A stretch of 64,000 nucleotides of DNA from Aphanothece saxicola GSE-SYN-MK-01-06B (GTDB lineage Bacteria; Cyanobacteriota; Cyanobacteriia; PCC-6307; Cyanobiaceae), in the NCBI GenBank assembly GCA_019359745.1, contig JAHHGT010000003.1, forward strand, positions 248,001 to 312,000, in the 5' to 3' direction. The translations under genes were made by a program, and so were the position numbers. The notes under the pieces were generated by a model. It did not search any database and was not told the origin of the DNA. It was given only the letters and a program-made list of their open reading frames with translations. Shown here in pieces: positions 43,513 through 64,000 of this stretch; positions within the stretch are counted from its first letter, which is position 1, and each line of letters starts with the position of its first letter.

Positions 43513-43645
43513 GGGCCAGTGGCAGGGGATTTGGCCATGCTGTTGCCCGCCCCGGGGCTGGCCATGTCCAGGTCAGCCAGCTTGCCCACAGCACCTTGGC
43601 CGGGAGGCGATCACAAAAGCCCCATGGGGCCGTTTATCAATGAAA

Positions 43646-43691
43646 TGGAGCCAAGCGGATTCGAACCGCTGACCCCCTGCATGCCATGCAG
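43646..43691 (-). tRNA. 3' half of tRNA-Ala(GGC): candidate attachment site of a genomic island
   Basis: On the minus strand this 46-bp segment reads CTGCATGGCATGCAG (anticodon arm, GGC), then the variable loop, then the T arm with GGTTCGAATCC, and the acceptor TTGGCTCCA without CCA. The D arm, the 5' acceptor strand and the 5' side of the anticodon arm's neighbourhood are absent; homology stops at 43,691. This is what remains when an element integrates into the 3' end of a tRNA gene: the old chromosomal 3' half is displaced from the intact gene. The intact copy should lie beyond the right edge. Confidence 0.75.
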
Positions 43692-45721: not shown

Positions 45722-45822
45722 GGCAACTGTTCGAAGGAATTGCTCCGCTCTGGCGGAACACCGTCGAACAGCCCCCGTGGGGAGGCCTCTACCTACCCTT
45801 GATCCAGTGGGGTGCGGCTCCA

Positions 45823-47326: not shown

Positions 47327-48115
47327 TTAGAGCTTCACAAAGAATCCACCAGTCACCAGATGCTGCAGGTGATCTCCGACCTGGTTGGCCCGCCAGGGCT
47401 CTCGCGTCAGCCAGCCAGCCTCGAAGTTGTGACGTTGCGCGGTTTCGCTGAAGTTGGCGCTGGTCACCAAGGCGCGGGCCCGGTCGGTCCCGACGTCAGT
47501 CACCACAACCTTCGCGTGCTGGTGGCAGCGCTCTGCGGTCTGGGAGAGAAGGCGGTGGTCGATGTAGGCCAGAGGCTTGGCGGGCCAGGGCCAAACGTCC
47601 GCATGGAACCACTGGCGGATGGCCTTCAACGGATCGGCTCCCAGCTTCCCTTCGATCTGAACCGGATGGAAGAACAGCTCCACACGCTTCAGCCGGCCGT
47701 CGCCAAGGCGCTCGGCAATGGATTCCAGTAACTCTCTGAAAGCTGCCGAAAGGCCGATGTTGTAGGTGGCAATGATCAAGCTCGATCGTGCCTGCTGGAT
47801 GAGCTGATCCACGGTGGCGAAGGTGTCGGCCGTCATGGAGTGGGCTGGTTCCGGACCAGACCACACGAAGCTCCAGCCATCCCTCTCCCGCTGCAGGGCC
47901 TCCTGCTGATCAGCCAGCTGCTCCAGCACCAGGGCCATCAGCCGTGGCTGGCCACCCTCGCGCACCATCTGCACCAGAAACGGTTCCAGCTGGCCACGCC
48001 CATCGGGGGAAATGCCGGCCAGCACGCCCTGCCAGCTGGTGGGCACATAGCTGAGCTGCCGCAGCGACGCGGCTACGGAACGCAGGGTCTGGGCGGGCAG
48101 CGACAGGCCCATCAC
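47327..48115 (-). CDS. drmC: DrmC-like phospholipase D-family protein
   Basis: The 262-residue product has a helical N-terminal half and a C-terminal PLD domain with one H-x-K-x4-D motif, CHQHAKVVVTD (H200-D207), followed by LVTSANFSETAQRHNFEAGW. With a single HKD motif it must dimerise to form an active site. DrmC of DISARM is a PLD-family protein of this size and always follows DrmB. Its start overlaps the drmB stop by four bases (ATGA). The family assignment rests on motif plus neighbours. Confidence 0.85.
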   Translation of the reverse strand: MMGLSLPAQTLRSVAASLRQLSYVPTSWQGVLAGISPDGRGQLEPFLVQMVREGGQPRLMALVLEQLADQQEALQRERDGWSFVWSGPEPAHSMTADTFATVDQLIQQARSSLIIATYNIGLSAAFRELLESIAERLGDGRLKRVELFFHPVQIEGKLGADPLKAIRQWFHADVWPWPAKPLAYIDHRLLSQTAERCHQHAKVVVTDVGTDRARALVTSANFSETAQRHNFEAGWLTREPWRANQVGDHLQHLVTGGFFVKL

Positions 48116-50022
48116 TCGGCTTCGGGGTAGATGAAGCTCCAGAAGCTGGGGTCGTCGTTGTCGTCGTGGACCGACACGGTGCGACTCACCAGGGCCCGAT
48201 CGAGGAACTCATTGCGTTGCTCGCAGGAAGTCTCGGCGATCAGCTCGCAGCCATGGCAGGCAGCACCGTGGGTCGGGCGGATGTCGAAGGGGTGGTTGGG
48301 GTCATGCTCGGAGCAGAACGGGTCGTTGCTGCAGAGCTGCGCCCGCTCGAAGGCCCTCTCCAGGTAGCCCACGATGCGCTTGCCGGCATCCACCAAGCCG
48401 CCGAGGGTTCCCTCGGAGCCCGAGGTGCTGGTGAGCAACAGGATGCCGTAGCCGATTTCCGGGTTGGCGTAGATGCGCTCCCGGATCGAGCTGGCTCCAT
48501 AACCGCATTCCAGGGCCATCTCGGTGATCAGGAGATGGCTGAGGCTGTGCAACAGGATGTAGGGGGCGCCGGGGAACGGGAACTGACTGCTGTCGAGTCC
48601 TCGCGACCGCAGCCAGTCGTTCTCGAAGGCCTTACTGAACTGGACGGATCGACCGGTCACGGCGTCGCTGCTGGCCCAGTCGGCGATGGTGGCGGGGTCG
48701 AACTCGATGAAGATTCCCTCTCCTTTGTTCTCAGCCGCCGGCAACCAGCGAAGATCGTTGGCCAGTGGCGCCCGGCCGTTGGTCCTGGTGGTGTCGATCG
48801 GCAGGCCGCCCAAACTGCTGGTGCGGGCGGTGAAGCGGGTGAAGCCCACCAGCGCCTGGACTTCCCGCAGGCGCTTCACCAGCAGCACCCGGCGGATTGC
48901 CTTGCCAAACCAGTCCGGTGGCTGCTCGGGCGTCCAGATCACGGCCTCGAACAGGCTGTCCTCCGCTGAGCTGGACACCCCATCCATGGGGCCGATGAGC
49001 AAGCGGAGTTCCTCATCCTTTGGCTGGGGCACCTCAGCGGTGCTGCCGCCACGATGGCCCTGGATCGCCTGCCAGAGCGCGGCCGGTTCCACCCCCGCAA
49101 AGGCGCTTCGCAGGCGGGGATTGAACTTCAGGGCTGTGGCGATGTCGCTTTCCGCCTCGATGGCTTCCAACTCAGCTTTCAGCTCGGTGACGCGCCTGGC
49201 GAGCCCGCCTGCTTCCTCTGGCAATGAGATCACAGAGATCGTCTCGCTGAAATAGGCATTGGTGGCCGATCGCACCAGCAGGCGGTTCTGGGTGCGTTCG
49301 CCATCGGTGCGGCATTCCTCGCTGTCGCGGCTGTAGCGGCCCAGCCAGGGGGTATAGCCGCCGCAATTGCCAAGGGCCTTGGTTTCGGGGATCAGGGCAT
49401 CGGCGAGCTTGCGGGTGGTACCTCCTTCTGCCTGCACGAAGATCTGGGTGAAGTCGTTGCCGGTGCCGGCCTCCAGCAGATAGAGACGCTCGTCGTTTTT
49501 GCAGCCGAACTGGTTGAAGCAGAAGTCACGCCAGCGGATGTCGCTGAGGTGGCCGTGGGGACAGGCCATCACGAACCGCACCGGCACCAGCTGGTGTTCG
49601 CCCTCGTCGTCCTTGTACTTCTTCCAGTCCTTGATGCAGCTGTCGTTGAAGTGCACCAGCAGGCGGGCACGGCAGATGATTCCCAAGGCCTCGCGGTCGG
49701 GGATCTTCTTCTGCACCACCGACCATTCGGGGAAGCGCAGGGCCTTGATCGATCCGCTGATCTTCTTGATCGGATCCACCTCCTTGGGAGGGGTGCGCAG
49801 ATCCACCCGCGCCGCGCCGGTCGCCTGGCGCGCCAGGCGGAGCAGCCGCGGCTCATGGATCTCGTCGCAGCCGCGATCGTTCCAGTAGTCGAGCCCGCCT
49901 ATCAGCACGGAATAGTCGGGCAGATCGACCATGGCACCCGGGCCATAGAGCTGCAGCACCTGGCTCTGGCGGGCTTCGCCGAGGGGGGGCGGGGCAGGTT
50001 TTCGTCGGGTGCTGGGCGGCAT
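48112..50022 (-). CDS. drmB: DrmB-like DUF1998 protein
   Basis: The 636-residue product has the DUF1998 region near the C-terminus: ILLHSLSHLLITEMALECGYG, ERIYANPEIGYGILLLTSTSGSEGTLGGLVDAG (in part), and a Cys cluster C564, C570, C589, C592, C600 (CHGCELIAETSC) that probably holds zinc. DUF1998 is the hallmark of DrmB. In DISARM DrmA and DrmB form a complex that binds DNA and hinders entry of unmethylated phage DNA. Start MPPSTRRKPAPPP at 50022, 34 bases after the drmA stop. Order drmA-drmB-drmC is the DISARM core. Confidence 0.9.
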   Translation of the reverse strand: MPPSTRRKPAPPPLGEARQSQVLQLYGPGAMVDLPDYSVLIGGLDYWNDRGCDEIHEPRLLRLARQATGAARVDLRTPPKEVDPIKKISGSIKALRFPEWSVVQKKIPDREALGIICRARLLVHFNDSCIKDWKKYKDDEGEHQLVPVRFVMACPHGHLSDIRWRDFCFNQFGCKNDERLYLLEAGTGNDFTQIFVQAEGGTTRKLADALIPETKALGNCGGYTPWLGRYSRDSEECRTDGERTQNRLLVRSATNAYFSETISVISLPEEAGGLARRVTELKAELEAIEAESDIATALKFNPRLRSAFAGVEPAALWQAIQGHRGGSTAEVPQPKDEELRLLIGPMDGVSSSAEDSLFEAVIWTPEQPPDWFGKAIRRVLLVKRLREVQALVGFTRFTARTSSLGGLPIDTTRTNGRAPLANDLRWLPAAENKGEGIFIEFDPATIADWASSDAVTGRSVQFSKAFENDWLRSRGLDSSQFPFPGAPYILLHSLSHLLITEMALECGYGASSIRERIYANPEIGYGILLLTSTSGSEGTLGGLVDAGKRIVGYLERAFERAQLCSNDPFCSEHDPNHPFDIRPTHGAACHGCELIAETSCEQRNEFLDRALVSRTVSVHDDNDDPSFWSFIYPEAE

Positions 50023-50056
50023 GGGTTCGGTTGGCTGTTGGCTCAGGTGGCTTGGC

Positions 50057-53000
50057 TCATTCGTCGGCGGTGATTTCCTCGCGGAAATTCACCAGCCGGA
50101 TCGGCACCGAGGGCTCCACATCCCGCAGGCTCCAGCCGGTGGAGAATTGCTTGTAGCCCTCGCCGGCATAAAGGGCATCGGTATCCAGCGGGGTGTGGAG
50201 CAGGCCCGCACCTGCTGCCTTGTCTTCGTGGGTCCAGTACTGGAGCTTGGCCTCCGGTTGCTGGGTGAGCTTCCACCAGGCCTCCATCAGATCGATCACC
50301 TGATCACGGACCTCTGTGGGCAGCAGCTGGTTGTGGCCATCGTCGGCGGCTCCGGTGGCAATGCAACGACTCTGCAAGGCGGTGGCTATCTGATCCTTGA
50401 TTCGCTGCAGGGCTTCGGCATTCATCGCTCCCTTGGGCGGAGCCAACTGGGGATTGCTGTGCCTGGCCATCGCCACCACGACGCCGGGTAGTCCGCGATC
50501 CAGGGCGCGGCTGGCGAAGGGTGTGCAGCTGGTGGCCTCGACATGGCGGTAGAAGGTCTGATGCCAGTAGGGGAACAGCTCGAAGTGGGAGCGATCGCGC
50601 GGACGGTTGGGGTTGAGCAGCACCAGCACCAGCCCCGGTTTGTTCTCCTCGGGGTTGGGGCTGAGCTGTCGGCCCACCCGGCTGGTGGCCTGGATGTACT
50701 CGGCGGCGGTCTTGGGCTGGTTGAGCACCACCATCAGCCCCAGCCTGGAAATGTCGAGGCCCACCGAAATCATGTTGGTGGCCAGGGCCACGTCGAGCCG
50801 TTCCTTGTCGACGTAGGGCCTGGAAAGCCGGTCCTTGGTGACGCTGATCCGTGCCGTGCTCACCCGTGAGGTGAGTTCTTCCGGCATCTCGGGCCTCCTG
50901 CGACTGGCGAACGGGACATCAACCCCCTCCATGGGGAGGGTGCGGTTCCGGTGGAACTCCTCCAGCTGGGCGCCCAGTTCATCTTCGAGGATGCTGCGGG
51001 TCACACCAAGTTCCTTGAGGTTGGAGAAGTACCCCAGCAGGGTCATGTAGGGATCGGCGGGATTCTTCGCTCCCATCCCTTTGTGTTCGTCCCACGCCTT
51101 CTGGGAAGCTGCCATCAGGCCCAGGTAGCTGCGCAGCAGCACGCCCTTGAGGTTGCGGCCGGGCGCCGAAAGCCCCACGTAGAGGCGGGCCTGATCGGGA
51201 TCCGGCACTGAGTGGGAGAAAAAGTTGTCCTCCCGCTCCGGCCCGGGCGGCGGAAACACACGGGACTGGGCCCGGCCGAAGAGGGCCTTGATCTGGGCTT
51301 CGGCCCGGCGGACGGTGGCGGTGGAGGCAATGATCTTCGGCGGCGGCGACTCTGGAGTGGGTCGCATCAGGTCTTCGATCACGGCCTCGTACAGACCGGC
51401 AAGGGTGCCGAGCGGTCCGCTGATCAGGTGCAGCTCGTCTTGAATCACCAGCTCGGGGGGCAGCAGCCGACCCTGAGGTATCTTCATGCCCGAGGGCTTC
51501 TCGGCCGGCCCCCAGAAGCCTGCGACGGCGTCACCTTGCGGCAGGTGGTAGTGGCTCACATTGCCAAAAAGTGAGGAGGTCTTTCCCACCCAGGGCAGGG
51601 CGGCGAACTTGTCGATGGTGGCGATCAGGAAGCAGGGCAGGCGGCGGTAGATCTGCTCATCCACGGCGAGCACCGGCAATGGCGTGCCCTTGTGGAAGGG
51701 GCACTGCCCCATGTGGACGAACTCCTGCTTCGCCTCAGGTGATCTGGGTTCTCGGCAGAAGATCTCCAACCGATCGGGATTCCGTGGGGGCAACAGGTGA
51801 AAGCCTTCCGCTTGAAGGGGACGGTTGCACCACGGACAGGTTTCGATCGGAATCGGTCTCTCTCCACCTCGCATCTTCCAGCGGTTGAGCACTGCGTGAG
51901 TGCACTTGTCATCCGGATCTCCAGGCCCTCCGAGCTTGTTGGGGGTGGCGGCCTTACCCACCCACATGCCGATCTCAAAGGGCCAGTCACCCAGTGGGTA
52001 GGGGTCGCCGGAGCTGGCGCGATGCAGCCGCTCCAGCTCCAGGGCACAGATCACGGTGGCGGCACGGCCGAGCTGGTCGAGGGTGAGGAGCCGCAGCGTG
52101 TAGCGCATCAGCACCGTGACGCCGGCCGATTCGATGCCGGGGTGGGCGAGACGCCGGTGCACCAGTGTGAAAGCGGCCAGGCCCAGGTAGGCCTCGGTCT
52201 TGCCACCGCCGGTGGGGAAGAACAGCAGCTCCACCATCTGGCGGTCGATCCGGCCCCGTTCAGACTCCGGTTGCGCCAGCCCCGGCAGGTTCATCAGCAC
52301 GAAGGCCAGCTGGAAGAAACGCCATTCGGGCGTGCGGGTGCCGCTCACCTTGCCGATCTGTTCGGGCGGCACCTTGGTGCTGAAGGCGGAGCGTTGCCTT
52401 TGGGCCCGGGCCATCACCACGTTCATGGTGCGGAAGGCTTCACGAACCAGAGGATCGCTGAGGAGCTGGATTCCTGCCTCGATGCGATCGGCGCAGTCCT
52501 GGGCCTGGCTGCAGAGGTTCTTGGCGGTTTCGTTGAGGGCTGGATCTTCGATTGGGTGGGCGGGCTGGCGTGCGATCCAGTGGCGGTAGGCCTTCACGAG
52601 CGGCTGGAGTTTGCCGATGATCTGCTCGCTCTGGGCCAGGTCCGCCAGGGCCTCCATGCCCATCGGTACGCCTCTGGCTCCCGTGGGCGGTTCCGGCAGC
52701 ACCCGAAGAACCTCAGCGGTGGGCAGCCAGGTGGTGGTGAGGGTGTGGGCGCGATCGGGTCGGGTGGGCTCGATGCCACCGGTGATGACGGCCACGTTGT
52801 GGCCGCTGGCGAAGCAGAAGTCCCGGCGGTACTGCAGCGCGGCAAGGGCTTCGTCGTTGTCCTGATTGGAAACGTTCTGCAGAGCGTCCCGACGGGGCGG
52901 AAAGCCTTGGGGGCAGTGGAGGCTCAGCTCCGTCTGGAAGGCGGTGAGGGGATCGCGGAAACGGATCTGGCTGCTCTTGGGGGGTTCGCGCTTGTTGAGA

Positions 53001-53599
53001 AGGAACAGCGACACCGAGAGCTGATCGCTGGGGTAGCCGAGTTTCTTTGGTGCCGGCTTGGCGATCCATCGCAGACAGAGTCCCTCGGGGTTGGCCTCCA
53101 AGGGGATGTCGTCACTGCTGCCAGGGCCGGAGATGGTGAAGCTTTTCTGCACCCGCCGGGGAGTCCGCTTCCAAACCTTGCTGGGGTCCCCCTCTGGTGG
53201 CGGGTCATAGTCGCCCCAGCTCACGGTGGCCTCCAGGCTGAAGCCGCGCTCAAGGATGAAACTCATGCCCAGGGAAGAAGGGAACCAGCTGCGGCGGGTG
53301 TTGGCCTGATCGAGGGAGTCGTTGGCATCGTCTTCGGATTCCTTCTTCTCCAGTCGATTCGCGGCGTCGTTGCTGGGGTCTTCGCCGGCCAACTCAGCGA
53401 AGTTCAGCTGGTGGTCAGCGGTCTGTCGTTCCGCCTCCTGCTGGAACACATGGGGTACCAAAAAGCCCGTCGTGTACCAGACAGAAGGTGGTTGGCTGAG
53501 CTGCTCATGGCGGCGGGCCATGTCATCCCAACCGGGGCCGATCAGATCGCTGCGCAGGGCGGCGACGAGTTGCTGACGGATCTGGGCGGAGGTGGGCAT
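50057..53599 (-). CDS. drmA: DrmA-like SF2 helicase
   Basis: From ATG 53599 (MPTSAQIRQQL) the protein has 1180 residues; an upstream ATG at 53677 adds a poor N-terminus. It has a long N-terminal region (1 to about 440), an SF2 motor with Walker A FPTGGGKTEAYLG (K467), the DExH box VIQDELHLISG (721-724), STATVRRAEAQI, and the C-terminal lobe NMISVGLDISRLGLMVVLNQPK then YIQATSRVGR. Between the Walker motifs lies a Cys-containing insertion (CPWCNRPL). It heads the drmABC operon and is divergent from the Fic gene. DrmA is the DNA translocase of the DISARM core. Confidence 0.9.
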   Translation of the reverse strand: MPTSAQIRQQLVAALRSDLIGPGWDDMARRHEQLSQPPSVWYTTGFLVPHVFQQEAERQTADHQLNFAELAGEDPSNDAANRLEKKESEDDANDSLDQANTRRSWFPSSLGMSFILERGFSLEATVSWGDYDPPPEGDPSKVWKRTPRRVQKSFTISGPGSSDDIPLEANPEGLCLRWIAKPAPKKLGYPSDQLSVSLFLLNKREPPKSSQIRFRDPLTAFQTELSLHCPQGFPPRRDALQNVSNQDNDEALAALQYRRDFCFASGHNVAVITGGIEPTRPDRAHTLTTTWLPTAEVLRVLPEPPTGARGVPMGMEALADLAQSEQIIGKLQPLVKAYRHWIARQPAHPIEDPALNETAKNLCSQAQDCADRIEAGIQLLSDPLVREAFRTMNVVMARAQRQRSAFSTKVPPEQIGKVSGTRTPEWRFFQLAFVLMNLPGLAQPESERGRIDRQMVELLFFPTGGGKTEAYLGLAAFTLVHRRLAHPGIESAGVTVLMRYTLRLLTLDQLGRAATVICALELERLHRASSGDPYPLGDWPFEIGMWVGKAATPNKLGGPGDPDDKCTHAVLNRWKMRGGERPIPIETCPWCNRPLQAEGFHLLPPRNPDRLEIFCREPRSPEAKQEFVHMGQCPFHKGTPLPVLAVDEQIYRRLPCFLIATIDKFAALPWVGKTSSLFGNVSHYHLPQGDAVAGFWGPAEKPSGMKIPQGRLLPPELVIQDELHLISGPLGTLAGLYEAVIEDLMRPTPESPPPKIIASTATVRRAEAQIKALFGRAQSRVFPPPGPEREDNFFSHSVPDPDQARLYVGLSAPGRNLKGVLLRSYLGLMAASQKAWDEHKGMGAKNPADPYMTLLGYFSNLKELGVTRSILEDELGAQLEEFHRNRTLPMEGVDVPFASRRRPEMPEELTSRVSTARISVTKDRLSRPYVDKERLDVALATNMISVGLDISRLGLMVVLNQPKTAAEYIQATSRVGRQLSPNPEENKPGLVLVLLNPNRPRDRSHFELFPYWHQTFYRHVEATSCTPFASRALDRGLPGVVVAMARHSNPQLAPPKGAMNAEALQRIKDQIATALQSRCIATGAADDGHNQLLPTEVRDQVIDLMEAWWKLTQQPEAKLQYWTHEDKAAGAGLLHTPLDTDALYAGEGYKQFSTGWSLRDVEPSVPIRLVNFREEITADE

Positions 53600-53706
53600 G
53601 GGTCGATTCTGGCCAGGTTGGCAAGAGACCACCGCCACTGGCCTGGAGCCGGGGCCCCGAGCGCAAAGCCAAGCCATCTTCTAATTTGAAGCAAGTTTGA
53701 AGTTCA
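53600..53706. promoter_or_regulatory. Divergent control region between drmA and fic, with TTTGAAG direct repeats
   Basis: The 107-base gap between the two divergent genes has an AT-rich patch at 53,678-53,706. TTTGAAG occurs at 53,685-53,691 and again at 53,696-53,702, one helical turn apart. The second copy lies just before the TTG proposed as fic start. This looks like an operator, possibly for the winged-helix tail of the Fic protein; that link is inferred. Confidence 0.45.
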
Positions 53707-55038
53707 TTGCACTTGACCACCCGGCTGCCCCGCAAGCCCCCTTCTCTCCAGGAGATGCTGCAGCGCTGCGGGGGACTGGAGGAGACGCTGCTGATGCTCT
53801 CCCGCCTGGCCACCGCGGCGGAAGGAGATGACTACCTGCACTGGGATGAGCTGCGCCATCGCCCGCCGCCGGAGGGGCTGAGCCATGAACAGTGGTGGCT
53901 GGCCGAGAAGCTCTCCCGCCGGCCCACCCCGCTGCCGCTTCTGGCGAGTGACGGACAGGCCTTCTGGTTCTCGCAACCGCCTGTTCTGCTCCAGGGCCTG
54001 CATCAGATCGACATGCAGGCCGGTGCCAGCGTGGTGGCTCCCGAGGCCGTCAACACCCGCTCCACCCGGGATCGCTATCTGCTGAGCTCGCTCATGGAGG
54101 AGGCGATCACCTCCTCGCAGATGGAAGGCGCCGCCACGACAAGGGATGTGGCCAAAGCGATGATCCGCAGCCGCCGGCCGCCCCGCGACCGCTCCGAGCG
54201 GATGATCCTCAACAACTTCCTGACGATGCAGCGCATCCAGGAGCTGCGGGACCAGCCACTGACACCGCAGCTGGTGCTGGATCTGCACCGGCTGGTGAGC
54301 GAGGACACGCTGGATGACTCTGCCGATGCCGGCCGGCTGCGCCCAGCCGGTAAGGAGGTGGTGGTGGATGACGTCTACGGCACCGTGTTCCATGTGCCAC
54401 CGCCGGCTGAGGAGCTGCCGCACCGAATGGAGGAGCTCTGCCGCTTTGCCAACGGCGAGACCCCGAAGGTGTTCATCCACCCTGTGGTGCGGGCCATCGC
54501 CTTGCACTTCTGGCTGGCCTACGACCACCCCTTCTGCGATGGCAACGGACGAACTGCCCGGGCGCTCTTCTACTGGGCGATGCTGCATCAGGGCTACTGG
54601 CTGTTCGAGTTCGTCTCGATCTCCTCTGTGATCAACAAGGCCAGGGGGCAGTACGAGCGCTCGTTTCTTCTCAGCGAGAGCGACGACAACGACCTCACCT
54701 ATTTCCTGCTGGCCCAGGTGAAGGTGATCCAGCAGGCCATCGCCAATCTGCATGCCTACCTGGAGCGCAAGGCCGGTGAGGTGGGGGCCCTGCAGCAGCG
54801 GCTGGAGGGAATGGACGGGCTGAACCACCGCCAACTGGCTCTACTGCGCCATGCTCTTCGGCATTCCGGCTTCCGCTACACGGTGCTCTCGCACCAGAAC
54901 AGCCATGGGGTGAGCCATCAGACCGCCCGCAGCGACCTGCAGAAGCTGGCAGTCCGTGGGTTGCTGCTTCCAGGCAAGGATGGACGGCGAGAAATCTTCA
55001 GGGTGCCCGAGGATCTCTCGGCGCGGCTGCCCAGTTGA
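53707..55038 (+). CDS. Fic family protein with C-terminal winged helix
   Basis: The 443-residue product (TTG 53707) has an N-terminal Fic_N-type region, an inhibitory helix of class II type (SSQMEG, 136-141), the active loop HPFCDGNGRTAR (274-285) with all catalytic residues, and a C-terminal winged-helix domain (LNHRQLALLRHALRHSGF, SHQTARSDLQKLAVRGLL). Fic enzymes usually transfer AMP to Ser/Thr/Tyr of target proteins. The start is weakly supported: no Shine-Dalgarno precedes TTG 53707 or TTG 53713, so it may be leaderless, or ATG 53755 may be used. It is the only plus-strand gene in the defence block. Confidence 0.88.
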   Translation: MHLTTRLPRKPPSLQEMLQRCGGLEETLLMLSRLATAAEGDDYLHWDELRHRPPPEGLSHEQWWLAEKLSRRPTPLPLLASDGQAFWFSQPPVLLQGLHQIDMQAGASVVAPEAVNTRSTRDRYLLSSLMEEAITSSQMEGAATTRDVAKAMIRSRRPPRDRSERMILNNFLTMQRIQELRDQPLTPQLVLDLHRLVSEDTLDDSADAGRLRPAGKEVVVDDVYGTVFHVPPPAEELPHRMEELCRFANGETPKVFIHPVVRAIALHFWLAYDHPFCDGNGRTARALFYWAMLHQGYWLFEFVSISSVINKARGQYERSFLLSESDDNDLTYFLLAQVKVIQQAIANLHAYLERKAGEVGALQQRLEGMDGLNHRQLALLRHALRHSGFRYTVLSHQNSHGVSHQTARSDLQKLAVRGLLLPGKDGRREIFRVPEDLSARLPS

Positions 55039-55289
55039 TCAGGCGGGCCTTGATCCTGGCGAAGAGGGACACCCAGACGGAGCTCGGCACGCTGCTGGGG
55101 GATAAAGCCAGAAGGGAGCGGCTGATGCAGCAGGGGGGGGCAGGCGATTGCTGACACCATGGCTGGGTTCTGCACGGGCGAGAGCCGCGACACTCGGTGC
55201 CGGTCGGGGTGTGCCCCCTCGGCCTCCTGCTGGAGCCCGTAGAGCACCGAAAAGCCTGAGGTGAGTAAGTGCGAGGACGGCTGGGCCGA

Positions 55290-57056
55290 TCAGGACGAAG
55301 CGACTGATGCTGCCGCCTCGGGCGCGCCCAAAAGCGTTCGGAGACGCTGGAGGAGCACTCCTCGGCGCGCCTGGTAGAAGTCGGAGAAGCCGAGAAAACG
55401 CTCCGGGACGCTTCCCAAGCAGTGGCGCTCGATGAAGGCATGACGGCGGTCGTCCTCGGGAAACGCGGATGCGAGCCAGTCGTACGGGAGCGCGGCGCTT
55501 TTCTCCTGGTTGAGGACCCCATCGAGCAACTGGAGATTGGCAAGCCGGTCGGATCGGTCGATCCATTCCAGGCGAACCTCAGCCTCCACTCCCTCCCTGG
55601 CGAGGCGGCTCTCGGAAAACCGACTGCGCGGGAAAACGTGATCGACATGGAACTCGTGCCGCAGATCGTGGAACGGAAAGAGCAGCGACAACAGCGGGAA
55701 CAACCGTCTGTCGCCGTAGGCGACATCGACAAGGTCTTCGAGCTCTTCCTGCTCGAATCGAAGCCCCTTGCCGCGAGAGAGCATGGTGGCCTCCACGGCC
55801 TCCACTGGGAAGCTCGTGGCACCCTGCTCACGAATCGACGTACGAATCGCGCTGAGAAGCGTGTCGAGACCACTACCCCACACACCGGCCTTCAACAGCG
55901 ACCGCACGAGCCAGCCACGGATCGCTTCGCGGTCTTCCCGGAAGGTGCTGCTGCTCAGGTAGTGGGCGTCGAGGCCCCGCTTGTAGAGCGAGTAGGCAAT
56001 GGGCAGGAGCGCGTTGTCGGCGCCGAGAGTCTGACCCGAGAAGCCAAAGTCCGCCACGAGCTGGATCGTCAGCTTCAGCGCGCGGGCGATGTCGCGCCAG
56101 AGACGTTCCAGCACGACCATGTTGTCGTGATTGAAGTTGGTGACATTGAATCCAACGCTGCCGATGTCCGCCAGCATGAGCCCGGCCTTGAGAACAAAGT
56201 CCTTGGACAATGAAAAGCCGAACCTTGTCGTGTTGAGATCATCGACGAGGCCATGGATCTCCTGGCGCGCGTCGAGGTTGTTCCACTGCGCAGTCGCGAT
56301 CGAGAGGAGCAGATCGGAGTACGACAGGACGGTGCCACCGCTGTTTGTCCGGATGAAGATGTTGAGCACCTTGTCGAGGTCCTGGGAAGACTCCTCGAAG
56401 AAAGCGATGAGTGGTCTGTCGTGCACGACGGCATGCAGGAGATTGAGGGTCCTGAAGGCGTGCCGGTTCGTCGCTAGCCCGGCGGCCTGGATGTACTCGA
56501 AGATCTCAGTGGCATCATTGAGGTTGAGGATCTTCCTGACGGGGAACCAGTGGCAAGAATCTGAGTGTTGAGCTCGCTCCTCGCCGAGAAAGCAGAAGTC
56601 GTAGGCCAGGCCACCTTCGTTGGCGTCGGCGTCGGCAGCGATGTTGATGTAAAGGCGCTTTTCGGGGAAAGCGTCCGGGTTGTTCCACCACATCCGCGGC
56701 TCCTTGATCGCGTGGCTGCCTCGTAGGCCGATATTCAGGGCGGTCAGCCGCTGCTGCCCGTCCAGTACAGCAATGACCGATTGGCCTACCGGGACTTCCA
56801 CCGGCGGGCAATGGGGACGCAGCCTCTGATGGTAGTCGCGTACGAAGTCATAGAACTTGTACTGGCGGACGTTGTCACGCTCGACGCTCCAGAAGAGGAA
56901 GGAGCCGATCGGATAGCCCTGCATGAGGCTGTCAAACAGGCGGGCGATCTGCTCTGGCCGCCAGACGAACTCGCGCTGGATGGCCGGCAGCACGTAGTCG
57001 TGTCGATGGATGTGATCAAGCGCGTGGCGGATCGTGATCGGGGTTTGGAAGGTCAT
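55290..57056 (-). CDS. DUF262-DUF1524 (GmrSD / ParB-HNH type) protein
   Basis: The 588-residue protein has an N-terminal DUF262 domain (LPAIQREFVWRPEQIARLFD; YPIGSFLFW; DGQQRLTAL at 99-107) and a C-terminal DUF1524 HNH-like domain (EFHVDHVFPRSRF, HVDH at 470-473; LANLQLLDGVLNQEKSA). In GmrSD and related type IV restriction enzymes the DUF262 part hydrolyses NTP and the HNH part cuts modified phage DNA. It is fused here in one chain. Codon use (more TCG, GTC and CTC) looks different from the drm genes, so it may have been inserted separately. Fic lies convergent, 251 bases away. Confidence 0.88.
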   Translation of the reverse strand: MTFQTPITIRHALDHIHRHDYVLPAIQREFVWRPEQIARLFDSLMQGYPIGSFLFWSVERDNVRQYKFYDFVRDYHQRLRPHCPPVEVPVGQSVIAVLDGQQRLTALNIGLRGSHAIKEPRMWWNNPDAFPEKRLYINIAADADANEGGLAYDFCFLGEERAQHSDSCHWFPVRKILNLNDATEIFEYIQAAGLATNRHAFRTLNLLHAVVHDRPLIAFFEESSQDLDKVLNIFIRTNSGGTVLSYSDLLLSIATAQWNNLDARQEIHGLVDDLNTTRFGFSLSKDFVLKAGLMLADIGSVGFNVTNFNHDNMVVLERLWRDIARALKLTIQLVADFGFSGQTLGADNALLPIAYSLYKRGLDAHYLSSSTFREDREAIRGWLVRSLLKAGVWGSGLDTLLSAIRTSIREQGATSFPVEAVEATMLSRGKGLRFEQEELEDLVDVAYGDRRLFPLLSLLFPFHDLRHEFHVDHVFPRSRFSESRLAREGVEAEVRLEWIDRSDRLANLQLLDGVLNQEKSAALPYDWLASAFPEDDRRHAFIERHCLGSVPERFLGFSDFYQARRGVLLQRLRTLLGAPEAAASVASS

Positions 57057-57126
57057 TCGTTTCGGGGCCTGCTATCGAAATGCAGAGGCTCGAAGAGGCC
57101 AAGTGCTGGATGCAGCGATGAGCTGA

Positions 57127-57324
57127 TCATTGCGAAAAGCCGGTTGGCCCAGTATCGGTTGTCTGGGTGATTTCGCGCCACTTCCTGCGCAAAGCGCTCG
57201 GCAGTGGGGCGCGGAACTGTTGGTGGCGCATGCCTCCCGGCCTTTGCAGCAGTTCATGGATCACCAGGAACCGCGGAACCCCGCCGATCTGAACAACAAG
57301 CTCGAGGGAGGCAAGAGCGATCAA
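57127..57324 (-). CDS. Short frame coupled to the DUF4011 gene, uncertain
   Basis: A 65-codon frame starts with TTG overlapping the stop of the large upstream gene (TTGA). It encodes SLELVVQIGGVPRFLVIHEL and a basic C-terminus (SALRRKWREITQTTDTG). No family was recognised. It could be a real small protein, a detached remnant, or chance. It occupies most of the 264 bases between the DUF4011 and DUF262 genes. Confidence 0.25.
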   Translation of the reverse strand: MIALASLELVVQIGGVPRFLVIHELLQRPGGMRHQQFRAPLPSALRRKWREITQTTDTGPTGFSQ

Positions 57325-60300
57325 GGGTGCTCCTGGGCATAGAGCCGACCATCCCGTTCGACCAGCAGCCGGTTCCCTAGCAGTTGCTCGAGGGCACCGG
57401 TGATCGCCTGCCGCTGCTGCTGGGTAAATCGAGAGCCGCCGGTGAGCCTGAGACAGGCCTCGCGCAGCAAGGCTTCCGGATCGATCGAGAGCGCCTCACG
57501 GGCGATGAGCAGCAGCGCCCCTCGGCGCTCGGCCATCGGCACTGAGTCGATGGCTCGGCCGGAATCGGGCGGCAGCCGGAATCCCTCCCATCGTTCGCAC
57601 TGGGTTCGGCTGACCCAGAGCGTTTCTTCACCATCCAGGTAGAGGCGCTGCTGTCGATGGAGGCTGGAGGCAATCGTCATCAGCCGCTCATGGGCTTTCT
57701 GGCTGAAAGCCCTGCTGTTCCAGCATTGGGTGACGCGAACCGTAGCCTCGCGCTGTAGGACCGGCGCCTCAACGGCCAAAAGGGAAATCAGCCGGTTCGC
57801 GATCTGCGAAGTGGCCTCGGAGGAATAATACGTGCGAAATTCGGTGTCCGCCGGCTCGAGGCTGGCCTTCGCATAGGGCCGGCCGAGCTCCATGGGCGCA
57901 GACGCAGGAACTGGAGCGGGCGGTGGCGGGGGTGGTGCATCCTTGGCTTTCCGTTCAACTTCATGGACCGCCGGGGCAGGCCTCAAAGCAGCGGATGGCG
58001 CAGGGGCCTCGAAGGCGTGGCGCACGGCCTGGAGCAGCCGCTGCTGCTCGCTTGCGGGATTGAGCTGCCACTCCAAAGACCAGACACGGTGCATGGTCCA
58101 TCCGAGTTGCTCGAGAACGGCGGTGCGGAGGCGGTCGCGGTCGCGAACGGTCTTGGCGGCGGCGTAAGCAGCGGCATCGCACTCGATGCCGATCCGGTAG
58201 CGGGAGAGGTTTTCGGGATCGATGACGGCCAGATCGATCCGGTAGTTTGCGCAACCCACCTTGCACTCCACCAGATAGCCCTCGCGAACGAGCAGATCAT
58301 GAATCTGTCGTTGCAGGCTGCCGTCGAAATCATTGACACGAAGGGGGCGATCGGCCAGCCGTTCCTGGCTGCGGCAGAAAGCAAGAAAGTCCTGCAGGTG
58401 GTGCACGGCACGGGCATTCGTGCGGCTGCGATCGATCTGTTCGGGCTGAAAGCTGGCGAATACATGGAGCGAACAGCGGGCACGGGTGATGGCCACGTTT
58501 AGGCGGCGTTCGCCACCTGGTTTGTTCAAGGCTCCGAAGAGCATCGAAAGCACACCGTCTTGGCGGGGCCCAAAACAGATGCTGAAGAAGATCTCATCGC
58601 GCTCATCTCCCTGTACCGTCTCCAGGTTCTTCACGAAGCAGTACTCGAGATTGTCTCGGGAGAACCAGCCCTCCAGCTCGGGCTCCCCTTCACAGGCCTT
58701 CTGCAGCAGGCTCTCGATCAGGAGCTGCTGGGGGATGCTGAAGGTGATCACACCAAAGCTGCGTTCGCCTGGCGTGTGGGCGCGGAGCCGCTCCAGCAGG
58801 AGTTCGACAAGGACACGGGCTTCGGTCTCGTTGTTGCGAACACCAGACTTGTAGTCACCGTTGCTGACCGGATGCCAGTGGAGCCCCAGCTCGCTGTCAC
58901 TGCGACAGGGGGCGGGGAAAAGGTTGAGGCGGCCGGAGTAGTAACACCTGTTGCTGAAGTCGATCAGCGCCTCATGGCGGCTGCGGTAGTGCCACTGCAG
59001 CATCTGCTGCGGCATGCCGCAGGCGATCGCCTCATCGAGAATGCTCTCGAGGTCATCGACTCCATCGCTGGCGTTGATGCCGTCGTCGGCGTTGCCCGGA
59101 CGCTGAAAGAACGACGAGGGCGGCATCTGCTTGTTGTCACCAACGATCACCACCTGCTCGCCACGGCCGATCGCAGCGATGGCGTGATGGGTTTCCACCT
59201 GGGAGGCCTCATCAAAGATGACGATGTCAAACCGCTGCCCATCTGCTGGCAGGAAGCGGGAGACAGAGATGGGGCTGGCCAGGAGGCAGGGCTTGAGTTT
59301 TGGCAGCAGGGTGGGGATGCGGCTGAACAACTGGCGCAGGGGTAGGTGCCGCTTTTTCTTCACGATCTCGCGGTTGAGCTCAGCCTGCTCGGAGCCATTG
59401 AGGCTGAGATTGCGGTTGGGCATGCGGCTGATCACCTGGGCGCGCACATACCGGCGGCTCAACTGCTGCACCTGGGCATCGAGGGAGCGGAACTGCTCCA
59501 CCAGGCTGCTGTGGCTGGAGCCGCTGAAGCGGCGCAGAGCCGGATCGGAATCAAAAAGCCGCTGGAACCAGTGGCGCAGAACGGCCGTGCGATAGGCCTC
59601 CTCCAGCTCCGCTAGGGGAAGCGAGGCTGCTGCAGCCCAGTCGAGCACTGCGGCAGGTCCTGAGCGACGGAACTCGGTTTCGAGCTCATGGGCGAGCGAT
59701 AAGCCGCGCAGCCCAGGCAAGTCGGCATTCAGCTCACCGAGCCAGGATCCGAGCTGGGCGATCGGCTCGCCACGCTGACCGGCGAGAGGCAGGGATGGGT
59801 GATTGAGCAGGCGTGCAAGCTCTGAGAAGCCCTCCTCCGCCCTGGCGTGCAAAGCCTGGAGTTCACTCTGTATAGCGGGCTCCAGAACGGCGGCATACCG
59901 CAGAAGAGCCAGCATCTCCGGACTGGCCTTGGCCATCGTCGCGAGCTTCACCCACTGGTCCAGGAGCGGCGGCAACCCCTGAGCCTCACCGCCCCAGCTG
60001 GGGAGTTGCCGCTGCAATGTCTGGCGCTCCTGCTCCAGCCGCTCCTGCTCCATTGGCAGATCACGAAGGGTGCGCAGATCCTCGAGCAGCCTCCGCAGGC
60101 CGAGCCCAGGTTCGCGCACGAGGCCGCGCAGCTGACGCCGGAAGAAGAAGGCCCCTATCCAGCGAAGCAACACGAAGCTACCCAGCAGCTTTTGCAGCCG
60201 CTCGATCAGCGGCTCGAGGTTGTGGTCGAAAGCGGCGGGCTGCCAGCGGCTGCGCAGATCGGTCTCCCCTCGACGCATCTGTTCTTCCTCCTTCTGCCAG

Positions 60301-63185
60301 TTCCGTGCTGCCTGCTCCACCTGCGGCCAGCGTTCCTGGTCGAGCACCACGGGCGGCACGCTGGACCCGCCGAAGTGGCCGAGAACATCGGCCAGCCGTG
60401 ACATCCCCTCCCAGCTGGAGGTGGCCAGGGGTAGCCCTGCGGCCCTGAAATGATCGAGACGCCCGCCGAGCTGGAGCATATCGGAGCCCAAGCGTGGCAG
60501 CAGGGTGCGCAGCTGCTGCTCGAGATCGAAGCTCCATGCAGGATTGGGCAGAAAGCGCCAAGGGTTGCTTCCCGTGACGGCAAGGAGCGCACGCTCAGCG
60601 GCGTAGGCGCGGATCTTGGCCTGGTTGGCGTGGAAGCGTTCGGCCGTGAGCTGATCCGTTTCCAGCTCCGCAGGCAGGGGGGGAAGAGGCCTGGCGGGTT
60701 GGACGGCATCGAGCATCTCGAAAAGAGAGCAGCCGATCGGCCTGATCTGGTGGAGCGCCCTGGTGTGATCGCGCAGGCGGCGACGAAGCTGATCGAGTTC
60801 GCCACAGTCCTGATCCCAGCACTCCGGCATCGTCTCCTGGGCCTGGAGAGCCAGCTGGAACGATTGGTGCACCTGCTCCGGGTTGCTGTCGGGCTTGTGC
60901 AGATCGAGGCAGAAGGCGTCAAGGCCGATGGCCTTGAGGCGGTTGAGAACCACCTCAACGGCGGCCGCTTTCTGGGCCACGAACAGCACCGTTTTGCCAG
61001 AGGCCATGGCGGCCGCGATGATGTTGGTGATCGTCTGCGACTTTCCGGTGCCGGGCGGTCCTTGCAGCACGAAGCTGCGACCCTTCATGGCTGCATGAAC
61101 AGCCTGGATCTGAGTGGAATCAGCCTCCACCACAAGGGGAAGATCACTGGCACTGAGGTCATCGAGATCCTCAAGCTCCAGGTGGGGAACGGGATCGATG
61201 AAGGGATCATGTCCGGCGGTGGCGATGTGGCGCACGGCATCGCTCTGCAAGATCTGGACTTGGTTGTCCTGGAGATCGCGCCAGAGCAGAAAGGTGGCGA
61301 AGTTGAACGTATGGATGAACACCGCGGGAATCACCCGCCAGCCGGAGCGGCCGATGATCGCGTGGCTCACCTCGCTGAGAATCGCTGCAAAATCCAGCCC
61401 GTCATCGTTCTCGGGGAGGTCGGTGAGGATGTCGAGGCTGAGATCAAAATCCTGGCGAAGCCGCTCAAAGAGGGTGACGTTGCCCAGGGGTTCACCCTGT
61501 GTACGCATCAGGGTGATTTTCTGGATGCGGTTGTCGACTCTGATCTCCACCGGGAAGAGAAGCAGGGGCGCCAGGCGGGTCTGATGGGTGCTGTCCTGCC
61601 ATTGCAAGAGCCCTGCCGCCAGGTAGAGGGGGCTGAAACCGGTCTCCTCCTCCTCCAGGCGGGACTTTCGAAAGAGGAGCTTGCCCGTTTTCATCAGCTG
61701 ATCCGCGCTCATCGGGTCGTCCCGATCCAGCGCGCGGCGGGTGCGGCAGGTGTTGCGGCTGAGCTCCAGGGCCGAGCGTGCCAGCCCTTCATCACCCTCA
61801 CCGGCAACCTGATCCCCCAGGAGGGTGAGCGGCTTGCCGGACTCGAACAGCCTCACCAGGTCGGGCAGCAGTGGTTCGGGCACATCAAGGATCAGGCCCG
61901 CGGCCTTGCTGGTGCCTGTGGCCAGGTTGCCGATGTTCAACAGACGATTGTTCCGGGTGGAGAGATCCAGCAGCCGGTCTTGCCAGGTCTGGAAGCGGCG
62001 CCGCACGCTGGCATCGATGGGCTCGGCAGGAGCCTCTGGCTCCGCTGGACCGGACGTCGAGACAGCGTCGGCGGCGGCCTGCTGTGAAGCCTGGAGCAGG
62101 ATCTGACGAGCCAGCGAGATCACCTCGCCGGGTTCATCCCTGATCACCCGCATCCGAATCGACAGGGGCTCAAAGCCGTTGCGGCGCGCCTGAAAGACGT
62201 TCACCAGATACTCAAAACTCTGCAGATGGTGCCGAGCGGTAGCCACTGCCTCCGCAAACGAAGGCTGCGGCTTGGCTACATAGGAGGAGGAATCGAAGAG
62301 CAGTAGTTCGTTGGCATCGATCAGTTGTTGCACGGTGCTGACGTCTTCGAGCAGGGCCCCCTGCTGCATGGCGGCCTCGGCGCTGAGAAACACACCGGGC
62401 AGGGCATGGGCTTCCAGGCACACCAGCACGGGAAAGAGTCCGATCTGCTCCAGGCAGGCGGCGGCGAGGGGGGCCAGATCAGCACAGGTGCCAAGCCCTT
62501 CGCCGAGCACCTGATCCGGCAGGCGGATCCGCTGGCCGGCGCTCCAGTAGCCCGCCGGCGGATTGATGTAGCTGATCCCGAGGCGCCCGAGAGTGAGGTA
62601 GAGGGCTCTTGTCATTTCCACCACCCGTTCGGGGCCCGACTGGTACCCCTGCAGGCTGTTGGCGGAGCCCAGGGCTTCGAGGGTACGGCTGGTTTCCTTC
62701 AGCACCGGGGCGATCACCGGGTGATTGGGCGTCACGAAGCAGGCGTAGGCCTCGGCTGGATCGCCAGGTATCGATCGGGGCCAGCGCAGCGAGTTGTAGG
62801 CGAGCAGGCGCAGGCTGCGCGAGGCCTGCTGGATTGGCTCACCCCGTTGCAGCACCCGGCAGCGCAACTCGATGGTGCGATCTTCCATCTCCTGCGCGAG
62901 CAGGCCGACCGGGAGCGGCACCGGTTGGTCGGAGGCATGGAAGCTCTCGCCGCCATGGAGGGTGGGCAGCGGCACCAGCAGCGGGTCACCAAGATCGGGG
63001 AGCAGGGTGATCTCCAGGCTGAGCTCCTCGAGGGGTTCGGCACCTCTGTTCTCCAGAACGAGGGAGCGGAGCAGCGAGATCTTGCTCTGCTCCATCGCCA
63101 AGGAATAGGCATCGACGGTGTCGAGCTGAAGCTGGAGCATGGTGGGCAAGCGGACGGGGCTCAGGAGGAGATCAGGCGATGTCAA
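57321..63185 (-). CDS. Giant DUF4011 / SF1 helicase / MTES_1575-type nuclease / DUF3320 protein
   Basis: 1954 residues. The order is: N-terminal beta region (1-150); transglutaminase-like domain with a possible triad C234 (GTCADLAPLAA), H260 (LEAHALPGVF), D298 (LLFDSSSY); DUF4011 (WQDRLLDLSTRNNRLLN, 401-417); Upf1-like SF1 helicase with Walker A GPPGTGKSQT (709-716), DEAS box FDEASQVETHH (1325-1328) and VAITRARCSLHVFAS; PD-(D/E)XK nuclease of the MTES_1575/Vsr type (YRIDLAVIDPEN, D1651; IGIECDAAAY, E1668); and C-terminal DUF3320 (from about 1770). It sits 70 bases after the methyltransferase, so both may share an operon. A defence helicase-nuclease is inferred. Confidence 0.9.
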   Translation of the reverse strand: MTSPDLLLSPVRLPTMLQLQLDTVDAYSLAMEQSKISLLRSLVLENRGAEPLEELSLEITLLPDLGDPLLVPLPTLHGGESFHASDQPVPLPVGLLAQEMEDRTIELRCRVLQRGEPIQQASRSLRLLAYNSLRWPRSIPGDPAEAYACFVTPNHPVIAPVLKETSRTLEALGSANSLQGYQSGPERVVEMTRALYLTLGRLGISYINPPAGYWSAGQRIRLPDQVLGEGLGTCADLAPLAAACLEQIGLFPVLVCLEAHALPGVFLSAEAAMQQGALLEDVSTVQQLIDANELLLFDSSSYVAKPQPSFAEAVATARHHLQSFEYLVNVFQARRNGFEPLSIRMRVIRDEPGEVISLARQILLQASQQAAADAVSTSGPAEPEAPAEPIDASVRRRFQTWQDRLLDLSTRNNRLLNIGNLATGTSKAAGLILDVPEPLLPDLVRLFESGKPLTLLGDQVAGEGDEGLARSALELSRNTCRTRRALDRDDPMSADQLMKTGKLLFRKSRLEEEETGFSPLYLAAGLLQWQDSTHQTRLAPLLLFPVEIRVDNRIQKITLMRTQGEPLGNVTLFERLRQDFDLSLDILTDLPENDDGLDFAAILSEVSHAIIGRSGWRVIPAVFIHTFNFATFLLWRDLQDNQVQILQSDAVRHIATAGHDPFIDPVPHLELEDLDDLSASDLPLVVEADSTQIQAVHAAMKGRSFVLQGPPGTGKSQTITNIIAAAMASGKTVLFVAQKAAAVEVVLNRLKAIGLDAFCLDLHKPDSNPEQVHQSFQLALQAQETMPECWDQDCGELDQLRRRLRDHTRALHQIRPIGCSLFEMLDAVQPARPLPPLPAELETDQLTAERFHANQAKIRAYAAERALLAVTGSNPWRFLPNPAWSFDLEQQLRTLLPRLGSDMLQLGGRLDHFRAAGLPLATSSWEGMSRLADVLGHFGGSSVPPVVLDQERWPQVEQAARNWQKEEEQMRRGETDLRSRWQPAAFDHNLEPLIERLQKLLGSFVLLRWIGAFFFRRQLRGLVREPGLGLRRLLEDLRTLRDLPMEQERLEQERQTLQRQLPSWGGEAQGLPPLLDQWVKLATMAKASPEMLALLRYAAVLEPAIQSELQALHARAEEGFSELARLLNHPSLPLAGQRGEPIAQLGSWLGELNADLPGLRGLSLAHELETEFRRSGPAAVLDWAAAASLPLAELEEAYRTAVLRHWFQRLFDSDPALRRFSGSSHSSLVEQFRSLDAQVQQLSRRYVRAQVISRMPNRNLSLNGSEQAELNREIVKKKRHLPLRQLFSRIPTLLPKLKPCLLASPISVSRFLPADGQRFDIVIFDEASQVETHHAIAAIGRGEQVVIVGDNKQMPPSSFFQRPGNADDGINASDGVDDLESILDEAIACGMPQQMLQWHYRSRHEALIDFSNRCYYSGRLNLFPAPCRSDSELGLHWHPVSNGDYKSGVRNNETEARVLVELLLERLRAHTPGERSFGVITFSIPQQLLIESLLQKACEGEPELEGWFSRDNLEYCFVKNLETVQGDERDEIFFSICFGPRQDGVLSMLFGALNKPGGERRLNVAITRARCSLHVFASFQPEQIDRSRTNARAVHHLQDFLAFCRSQERLADRPLRVNDFDGSLQRQIHDLLVREGYLVECKVGCANYRIDLAVIDPENLSRYRIGIECDAAAYAAAKTVRDRDRLRTAVLEQLGWTMHRVWSLEWQLNPASEQQRLLQAVRHAFEAPAPSAALRPAPAVHEVERKAKDAPPPPPPAPVPASAPMELGRPYAKASLEPADTEFRTYYSSEATSQIANRLISLLAVEAPVLQREATVRVTQCWNSRAFSQKAHERLMTIASSLHRQQRLYLDGEETLWVSRTQCERWEGFRLPPDSGRAIDSVPMAERRGALLLIAREALSIDPEALLREACLRLTGGSRFTQQQRQAITGALEQLLGNRLLVERDGRLYAQEHP

Positions 63186-63255
63186 CGGCCAGCTGCAGCG
63201 CCTCGCTATCGAGATCCACGTCTCTGGGGGGGTGACAACCCGGACGCTGGTGGGC

Positions 63256-64000
63256 TCAAAACCCCAACCCCATCTGCTCGGCTGGCAGGGAGCCAGTTTC
63301 GCCGCTCCGTGCCGCTTTCGGCGGCCGCCCCCGTCGCTTGCCTCCCGGCGATGCCGGGCCTTCCGGCTTCTTGGAGCCCTTCATGTGGAGCCCTTGGGCC
63401 ACCTCCTCGGCGTAGCGCTCGGCGTTCAGCGCCAGCAGCCGGGCCAGCACGTCATCGCGGAAGGCATCGGGCCAGCGGTAGCGCCAGGGCAGCTTCTTTT
63501 TGCCCTTCATCGCGCCGTAGGCACGCAACTGGGCCTCGAATGCGTTGGCCTCGCCGGCCTCCCAGAAGAACAGATCACCGCTGTCGATGCGCTCCTGCAG
63601 CTCGTTGGGGAGCTGGGAATCTTCTTCCGTATCGAGGTAGTCGAGCCCGAAGCCGCAAGTGGTTGGCACTTCGCTCCAGCCGAAGGCAGCCAGCACCGCC
63701 TGATCCATCTCGCCATGGAGCCGGCGCAGTTCTAGAAAGCCGCTGCTGGTTTCGGATGGATCGTGGAAGCGGTTGTAGGTGCTGGTGAGCCCTTCGTTGC
63801 GGGCTTCCATCAGCTCGGCACGAAACTGGTGGTAGCGCTCGCCGATGGCTTCGAGGCTCTGGCGAGTGACTGAGTGGGTGGGATCGTTGGCGGAGGAATC
63901 GATGAGTGCGGTGGGGAAGGGGAAATTTTCGAAGCAATCGCCTTGGCTATACCTGAGATCATCCTTGAAGGATGAGCATAGAAAACGAGCCCATACCTCA
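63256..64000 (-). CDS. N6-adenine DNA methyltransferase, C-terminal part (DrmMI-like; runs off right edge)
   Basis: The frame is open from the right edge to TGA 63256 and gives 247 residues. They match the C-terminus of Eco57I-type N6-adenine methylases: EVWARFLCSSFKDDLRYSQ then CFENFPFP, LEAIGERYHQFRAELM, NEGLTSTYNRFHDPSE, LHGEMDQAVLAAFGW, and KLPWRYRWPDAFRDDVLARLLALN, then a basic tail. The catalytic NPPY motif is expected beyond the edge. In class 1 DISARM the methylase DrmMI marks host DNA, so this is the likely partner of drmABC, though a stand-alone type IIG origin is possible. Confidence 0.82.
   Translation of the reverse strand, partial: EVWARFLCSSFKDDLRYSQGDCFENFPFPTALIDSSANDPTHSVTRQSLEAIGERYHQFRAELMEARNEGLTSTYNRFHDPSETSSGFLELRRLHGEMDQAVLAAFGWSEVPTTCGFGLDYLDTEEDSQLPNELQERIDSGDLFFWEAGEANAFEAQLRAYGAMKGKKKLPWRYRWPDAFRDDVLARLLALNAERYAEEVAQGLHMKGSKKPEGPASPGGKRRGRPPKAARSGETGSLPAEQMGLGF

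Follow-up and report, generated by a model that had tools for sequence, protein, structure and literature searches.

When the gene for a giant helicase-nuclease stands between the methylase gene and the remaining genes of a DISARM (defence island system associated with restriction-modification) locus, is it part of a new kind of system or a passenger in a known one? This question is raised by a stretch of 64,000 nucleotides (C2:248001-312000, hereafter the window) from the nearly complete 3.25 Mb genome of the cyanobacterium Aphanothece saxicola GSE-SYN-MK-01-06B. The answer considered probable is that of a complete class 1 DISARM carried on an island integrated at a tRNA-Ala gene, with self-standing defence genes nested at two of its gene junctions, of which the one between drmMI and drmA is a site of recurrent exchange.

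Class 1 (type I) DISARM is defined as DrmA, DrmB, DrmC, DrmD and DrmMI at one locus (PADLOC; PMC9252829). The right edge of the window cuts the locus, and a further 9.9 kb beyond it contains the N-terminal part of drmMI, the orphan gene X340, drmD, an integrase-like open reading frame (ORF) and tRNA-Ala. The five DISARM genes, with positions past the edge given in window-equivalent coordinates, are:

47327-48115, minus strand: drmC, 262 residues, PLD-family nuclease (PADLOC DrmC 513 bits, E 4e-155; Pfam PLDc_2)
48112-50022, minus strand: drmB, 636 residues, MZB/DUF1998-type (PADLOC DrmB 222 bits, E 4e-66; Pfam MZB)
50057 to about 53599, minus strand: drmA, 1180 residues, superfamily 2 (SF2) helicase (PADLOC DrmA 827 bits, E 5e-249)
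63256-67401 window-equivalent (L002:5256-9401), minus strand: drmMI, 1381 residues (PADLOC DrmMI 1238 bits)
68439-71795 window-equivalent, same strand as the other drm genes: drmD, 1118 residues (PADLOC DrmD 1046 bits)

All five genes of the PADLOC definition are thus present at one locus as complete reading frames, in the full order drmD-X340-drmMI-DUF4011-BrxU-(Fic, reversed)-drmA-drmB-drmC. The HxK(x4)D motif of DrmC reads HAKVVVTD at residue 200, DrmA has a DELH motif and resembles the solved DrmA 7s9v (phmmer, E 4e-152), and DrmMI, whose C-terminal 247 residues (63256-64000) lie in the window, bears an NPPF motif and an MmeI-type target recognition domain. The conserved drmA start, MPTSAQI at 53599, lies 78 bases inside the longest ORF and is shared with compact relatives. 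The class 2 marker DrmE was absent from the PADLOC matches of the scanned island proteins, a set that did not include all small ORFs. As in other class 1 systems, drmD, drmMI, drmA, drmB and drmC follow one another on one strand; the locus differs in having X340 between drmD and drmMI, and 9.66 kb with three other genes between drmMI and drmA. These inserts, of 1.0 and 9.7 kb, break contiguity, and an interrupted operon is common among class 1 loci in the junction survey given below. A sigma-70 scan for separate promoters in the locus gave no signal above shuffled expectation. By its gene content it is an ordinary DISARM of class 1 with no part missing.

Profile searches confirmed the genes of the original prediction where it had placed them (drmC, drmB, drmA, the Fic and DUF262 genes, the 1954-residue gene and the methylase C-terminus), and all but the divergent Fic gene share one strand, as it had remarked. 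Its further proposal was that the locus departs from standard DISARM, either as a layered variant or as three defence modules nested around a drm core. The nested cluster is supported; the departure from standard DISARM was lost once drmD and the whole of drmMI were found just outside the window. Rightward extension was a check set beforehand, and the full drmD with NPPF in the methylase makes this a standard class 1 locus with passengers.

The junctions between the drm genes were designated S1 (drmD/drmMI), S2 (drmMI/drmA), S3 (drmA/drmB) and S4 (drmB/drmC), and the largest insert of the locus occupies the second:

53600-63255, no strand: slot S2, 9.66 kb, exactly from the drmMI stop to the drmA start

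In compact relatives only about 40 bp part the conserved end of drmMI (C-terminal EQMGLG) from the conserved drmA start. Filled loci keep both the drmMI end and the drmA start and, because these are the same in compact and filled loci, the inserts are clean. The junctions were surveyed in DISARM loci from the order (PCC-6307), from plasmids and from 80 genome-collection loci, with duplicates removed, gap sizes taken from tblastn ends and filling defined as at least 500 bp. By this measure S2 was filled in 53 of 83 cases, S1 in 9 of 56, S3 in 3 of 115 and S4 in 1 of 71, with Fisher p values for S2 against the other three of 2e-8, 8e-23 and 2e-18, respectively. Filled S2 slots were found in Cyanobacteriota, Pseudomonadota, Planctomycetota, Actinomycetota, Acidobacteriota and Verrucomicrobiota, and the state of S2 changes at least 22 times on the DrmA tree; DISARM loci with an empty S2 also exist (L052 and L069). 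Inserts occur in either orientation and, since several cargo genes are reversed, drmABC would not depend wholly on transcripts from drmMI at those loci. S2 is a recurrent parking slot for extra genes in DISARM of several phyla, and what recurs is the place of insertion, not the genes inserted here.

The order has 25 filled S2 slots, and in 24 of them a defence or toxin-antitoxin gene was recognised, compared with none of 21 control pieces of 3 kb from this chromosome. MNT and/or HepT account for 17 of the 25, and the other genes include VapC, AbiEi, GmrSD types HEC-05 and HEC-06, Septu PtuA, Dazbog DzbA, the AAA_13 candidate PDC-S06 and Fic. Outside the order, S2 holds YhcG-type nucleases, a ThsB-type TIR protein, Lamassu-like proteins, XRE-ImmA with PIN-like partners, a C5-methylase and unassigned genes. 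At two loci (L053, near 12175, and L072, near 6389) the start of an MNT antitoxin-type gene overlaps the drmMI stop as ATGA, which suggests that the toxin-antitoxin pair is translationally coupled to DISARM.

The genes that frame the slot have themselves been exchanged between DISARM lineages. The drmD of this locus is closest to that of L054, L058 and L059 (93-94% identity). For drmA and drmB the nearest loci are instead L066, L072 and L064 (85-89%), whose drmD is only 72-78% identical. In approximately unbiased (AU) tests, forcing the grouping of either gene on the other was rejected (p 3e-5 and 0.006). By these comparisons the drm genes at the locus are a mosaic, with implied breakpoints between drmD and drmABC, the stretch that holds the slots. 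Cargo crosses lineages as well: the DrmA of L044 is about 45% identical to that of the window, yet the Fic gene in its S2 is 88% identical and, as here, reversed and adjoining drmA.

The ends of the island can be read from the DNA. Its landmarks are:

43645-43691, no strand: left attachment-like repeat, a 47-bp direct repeat of the 3' part of tRNA-Ala(GGC)
44870-45823, minus strand: ArdC-like antirestriction gene near the left end (Pfam ArdcN E 1e-20, MPTase-PolyVal E 8e-26)
72507-73874 window-equivalent (L002:14507-15874), minus strand: integrase-like ORF (tyrosine integrase-like), adjoining the tRNA
73837-73884 window-equivalent (L002 15838-15884): right repeat copy inside the intact tRNA-Ala(GGC), its sequence read directly
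73837-73911 window-equivalent: tRNA-Ala (ARAGORN)

The locus is flanked by lexA and the gene for an 854-residue protein, and in three relatives (G147, G164 and G118) the site is empty, with about 0.7 kb between these flanking genes compared with 31 kb here. Alignment of the empty sites to the window yields two blocks, which in G147 and G118 have 47-48 bp in common; because this overlap falls at the direct repeat, DISARM lies on an island of about 30.2 kb integrated at the tRNA. In another relative, G038, a DISARM locus occupies this chromosomal site too. Its outer parts are the same, including the ArdC-like gene region, but the cargo of its S2 is Dazbog DzbA, a further ORF and Fic, in place of DUF4011, BrxU and Fic. 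The C-terminal half of the integrase-like ORF aligns at 91% identity with a section of a 460-residue frame that runs unbroken in G038, and the N-terminal half of the ORF finds no continuation there; as only the C-terminal half follows the G038 frame, the integrase gene may be broken here. The ArdC-type gene perhaps protects the incoming DNA of the element. Elsewhere the same lexA/tRNA-Ala site holds other DNA, of about 46 kb (G040, L174/L175), 24 kb (G133, L168/L169) and 7.7 kb (G186, L167), and it is likely an island hotspot.

Several points weigh against reading S2 as a specific exchange site for defence genes. The 80 loci from the genome collection were those with the best DrmA matches and do not form a random sample, and related loci count as independent in the Fisher tests. 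Thirteen of the 28 S2 inserts outside the order lack a recognised defence gene, the control for cargo content comes from one chromosome, and the reference genes by which cargo was recognised came from the slots themselves. The groups for the AU tests were picked after the identities were known. Finally, clustering on islands could gather defence genes without any cooperation between them.

The cargo of S2 in the window consists of three genes:

53707-55038, plus strand: Fic/AMPylase-like gene, 443 residues (Pfam Fic E 2e-20; PADLOC SoFic E 3e-40)
55290-57056, minus strand: BrxU-family GmrSD gene, 588 residues (PADLOC HEC-05 736 bits)
57321-63185, minus strand: giant DUF4011 protein gene, 1954 residues (Pfam DUF4011, AAA_11, AAA_12, REase_MTES_1575), with an alternative ATG start at 63140

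The DUF4011 protein matches PADLOC PDC-S37 with 1111 bits over residues 392-1948 and Hhe in part (503 bits). It unites in a single chain the DUF4011 domain, a superfamily 1 (SF1) helicase with Walker A (GPPGTGKS at 709) and Walker B (DEAS at 1325), and a Vsr-like PD-(D/E)XK nuclease with a GIECD motif, which is the composition of PDC-S37. A DUF3320 domain had also been foreseen; Pfam gave none at E<=1e-3, although relatives are annotated with it. While the protein is thus of the PDC-S37/Hhe type (DUF4011-helicase-Vsr), the other members were encountered outside DISARM, alone or with other neighbours, and plasmid-borne relatives are likewise solitary or have varied neighbours. A search with this protein alone against genome and viral collections returned no relative, which reflects a limit of that search, as plasmids hold many. 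In the order, PDC-S37 occurs in 31 of 399 genomes and a real DrmA in 41, and the two are adjacent in this genome only: none of the 30 other carrier genomes has DUF4011 beside drm genes, nor does any of the 120 other DISARM loci searched (a few being the same genome twice). The expected pairing of the drm core with a different helicase-nuclease, and a recurrent DUF4011-drmABC neighbourhood, were therefore not borne out, and a unit of the two is rejected for lack of adjacency elsewhere in the genomes and loci searched. A recurrent DUF262-DUF4011 pair was also considered and rejected; one such pair occurs in Picosynechococcus PCC 7003, with a DUF262 protein that is not close to BrxU (E 0.06). The DUF4011 protein is likely a second, independent helicase-nuclease layer.

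The second gene, previously described as DUF262-DUF1524, is by its sequence a full-length homologue of the type IV restriction enzyme BrxU. It matches the BrxU structure 7p9k over residues 3-577 (phmmer, E 7e-192), is 50.9% identical to pEFER BrxU, and shows the features of the GmrSD/BrxU family: a DUF262 N-terminal domain with RLFDS (at 39) and DGQQR (at 99), and a C-terminal HNH with DHxxP as DHVFP (at 472). The DUF1524-type end was upheld in part, since Pfam found no C-terminal GmrSD domain at E<=1e-3 while the HNH-type DHVFP is present. In pEFER, BrxU is nested in a BREX (bacteriophage exclusion) system, degrades DNA with 5-methylcytosine (5mC), 5-hydroxymethylcytosine (5hmC) and glucosyl-5hmC, and gives protection complementary to BREX (PMC8565348). 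The present gene shares with it the full length of the enzyme family, the three motifs and a position nested in a modification-based system; the host system is BREX there and DISARM here, and the enzyme of the window is known from sequence. Elsewhere BrxU genes lie inside or beside BREX, in pEFER between brxC and pglX (arrangement re-read), and neither PglZ nor BrxC was among the PADLOC matches listed for the large island proteins. None of the other genomes among the 399 of the order has BrxU, and it was therefore probably acquired from outside the order. No C5-cytosine methylase was found in this genome; the same absence in 35 of 42 genomes of the genus makes it usual there, and it lends little weight to a 5mC-cutting BrxU.

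The third gene is divergent from drmA and convergent with the BrxU gene. Its catalytic motif (HPFCDGNGR at 274) and inhibitory-type motif (SSQMEG at 136) are intact and fit the patterns HPFx(D/E)GNGR and (S/T)xxxE(G/N) of Fic proteins with an N-terminal inhibitory helix. Copies 88-96% identical occupy the same slot in five other DISARM loci, and others lie outside DISARM. Matches at E<=1e-60 were found in 25 genomes of the order, several without any drmB, which rules Fic out as a DISARM-specific component. It is likely a further independent layer, and possibly a toxin-type effector.

The best reading of these data is that class 1 DISARM serves as a chassis with an internal cargo slot, which would here provide layered defence. 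S2 divides drmD and drmMI from the drmABC core, and its content differs from one locus to the next, with the flanking drm genes left whole. DrmMI would mark host adenines, and DrmA and DrmB, with DrmC and DrmD, would attack unmarked incoming DNA, as published work on DISARM indicates; the trigger for DrmAB is unmarked DNA that carries 5' overhangs (PMC9142583). By analogy with its homologue, BrxU would cut DNA with modified cytosine (PMC8565348), in an NTP-dependent way if it follows 7p9k, so that phages modifying cytosine to escape modification-based systems would become its substrates, and a gap would be closed; DrmMI, being of the adenine type, would make no BrxU targets. DUF4011 may add a second independent helicase-nuclease and Fic a toxin-type effector. 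The cargo would work alongside DISARM and not as DISARM subunits. What the sequences show is the anatomy of the locus, the ends of its island, the recurrence of the slot and the swapping of modules; all biochemical activities, and any cooperation in function, are inferred. A stronger form, in which the conserved drmMI/drmA plug-in slot is kept open by selection as its cargo cooperates with DISARM, and interchangeable modules (type IV enzymes cutting DNA that modification conceals, or toxin-antitoxin pairs penalising a failure of DISARM) are swapped between lineages of a modular chassis by recombination at the junction, is plausible and must be held tentatively.

PrrC sits within a type I restriction-modification locus. 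Embedded toxin-type genes of DISARM (MNT-HepT, VapC, AbiE, Fic) may in a comparable manner act as guard or addiction modules that arrest or kill the cell once DISARM is disabled by counter-defence or gene loss. The frequency of MNT and/or HepT in the filled slots of the order, the overlap of the MNT start with the drmMI stop, and the intact catalytic motif of Fic beside its inhibitory-type motif would fit such a role; however, BrxU, Dazbog, Septu and DUF4011 are, or probably are, defences in their own right, for which a guard role is unnecessary, and S2 of the window has no MNT-HepT. The proposal is a serious but less probable alternative. Less probable still is plain crowding of the island, by which genes land anywhere and S2 is a chance spot. 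Defence genes cluster anyway, and in other genomes the hotspot is filled with 7.7 to 46 kb of different DNA, but occupancy of junctions within the same operon differs about 25-fold between S2 and S3 and about 45-fold between S2 and S4, and DISARM lineages that diverged deeply share the same Fic, identically placed and oriented. A single composite system, in which DUF4011, the BrxU-like enzyme and Fic would serve a DISARM variant of this lineage as functional subunits, is very improbable, for the co-orientation of all but Fic, the 70-bp gap between drmMI and DUF4011 and the short divergent start region shared by Fic and drmA are outweighed by DISARM loci with an empty S2, by DUF4011 standing beside drm genes nowhere else in the genomes and loci searched, by BrxU being otherwise absent from the order and tied to BREX elsewhere, and by Fic orthologues in genomes without drmB.

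Under the chassis reading, the locus extends what was previously known of nested defence genes, which had been described singly, as brxU in BREX and ShdA in Pseudomonas DISARM. "Additional auxiliary genes" in DISARM have been noted before (PMC9142583), and ShdA homologues are embedded in some 70 DISARM-like operons of Pseudomonas (PMC10270631). The latter case is alike in placing an accessory defence gene within DISARM, but concerns one family in one genus, and the part of that source consulted describes no fixed slot or multi-family exchange. In the open literature searched, a scope outside which the founding DISARM paper falls, no description of a fixed multi-family DISARM cargo slot was found, and priority is uncertain. 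The added element is that one fixed DISARM junction is reused by many unrelated defence families in several phyla, in a manner that can be measured. The slot helps to account for the variable look of DISARM loci, it offers a search rule for new defence genes, namely to read the content between drmMI and drmA, and it provides a direct way to tell defence systems that cooperate from those that only move together. The clearest case is BrxU, whose presence in both BREX and DISARM suggests repeated pairing of a system that cuts unmarked DNA with one that cuts over-marked DNA.

The smaller insert of the locus fills S1:

67411-68433 window-equivalent (L002:9411-10433), minus strand: X340, an orphan of 340 residues

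X340 matches nothing in Pfam or the PDB. Its homologues, at about 30-35% identity, were found only on plasmids of Sinorhizobium, Kozakia and Euzebya, and none in 119 relatives. Residues judged by eye (LDSNVW and DYFITADKRF) mark it as a putative PIN-like orphan.

Two further S2 inserts deserve mention. In L043 (5265-12708, plus strand) an Hsp70-NERD protein stands beside a 1729-residue fusion of RNA-polymerase alpha C-terminal domains with an SF2 helicase, and the two look like an undescribed defence pair. In a gammaproteobacterial DISARM (L160:2024-6056, plus strand) the slot holds a C5-cytosine methylase with a HATPase/HEF_HK protein.

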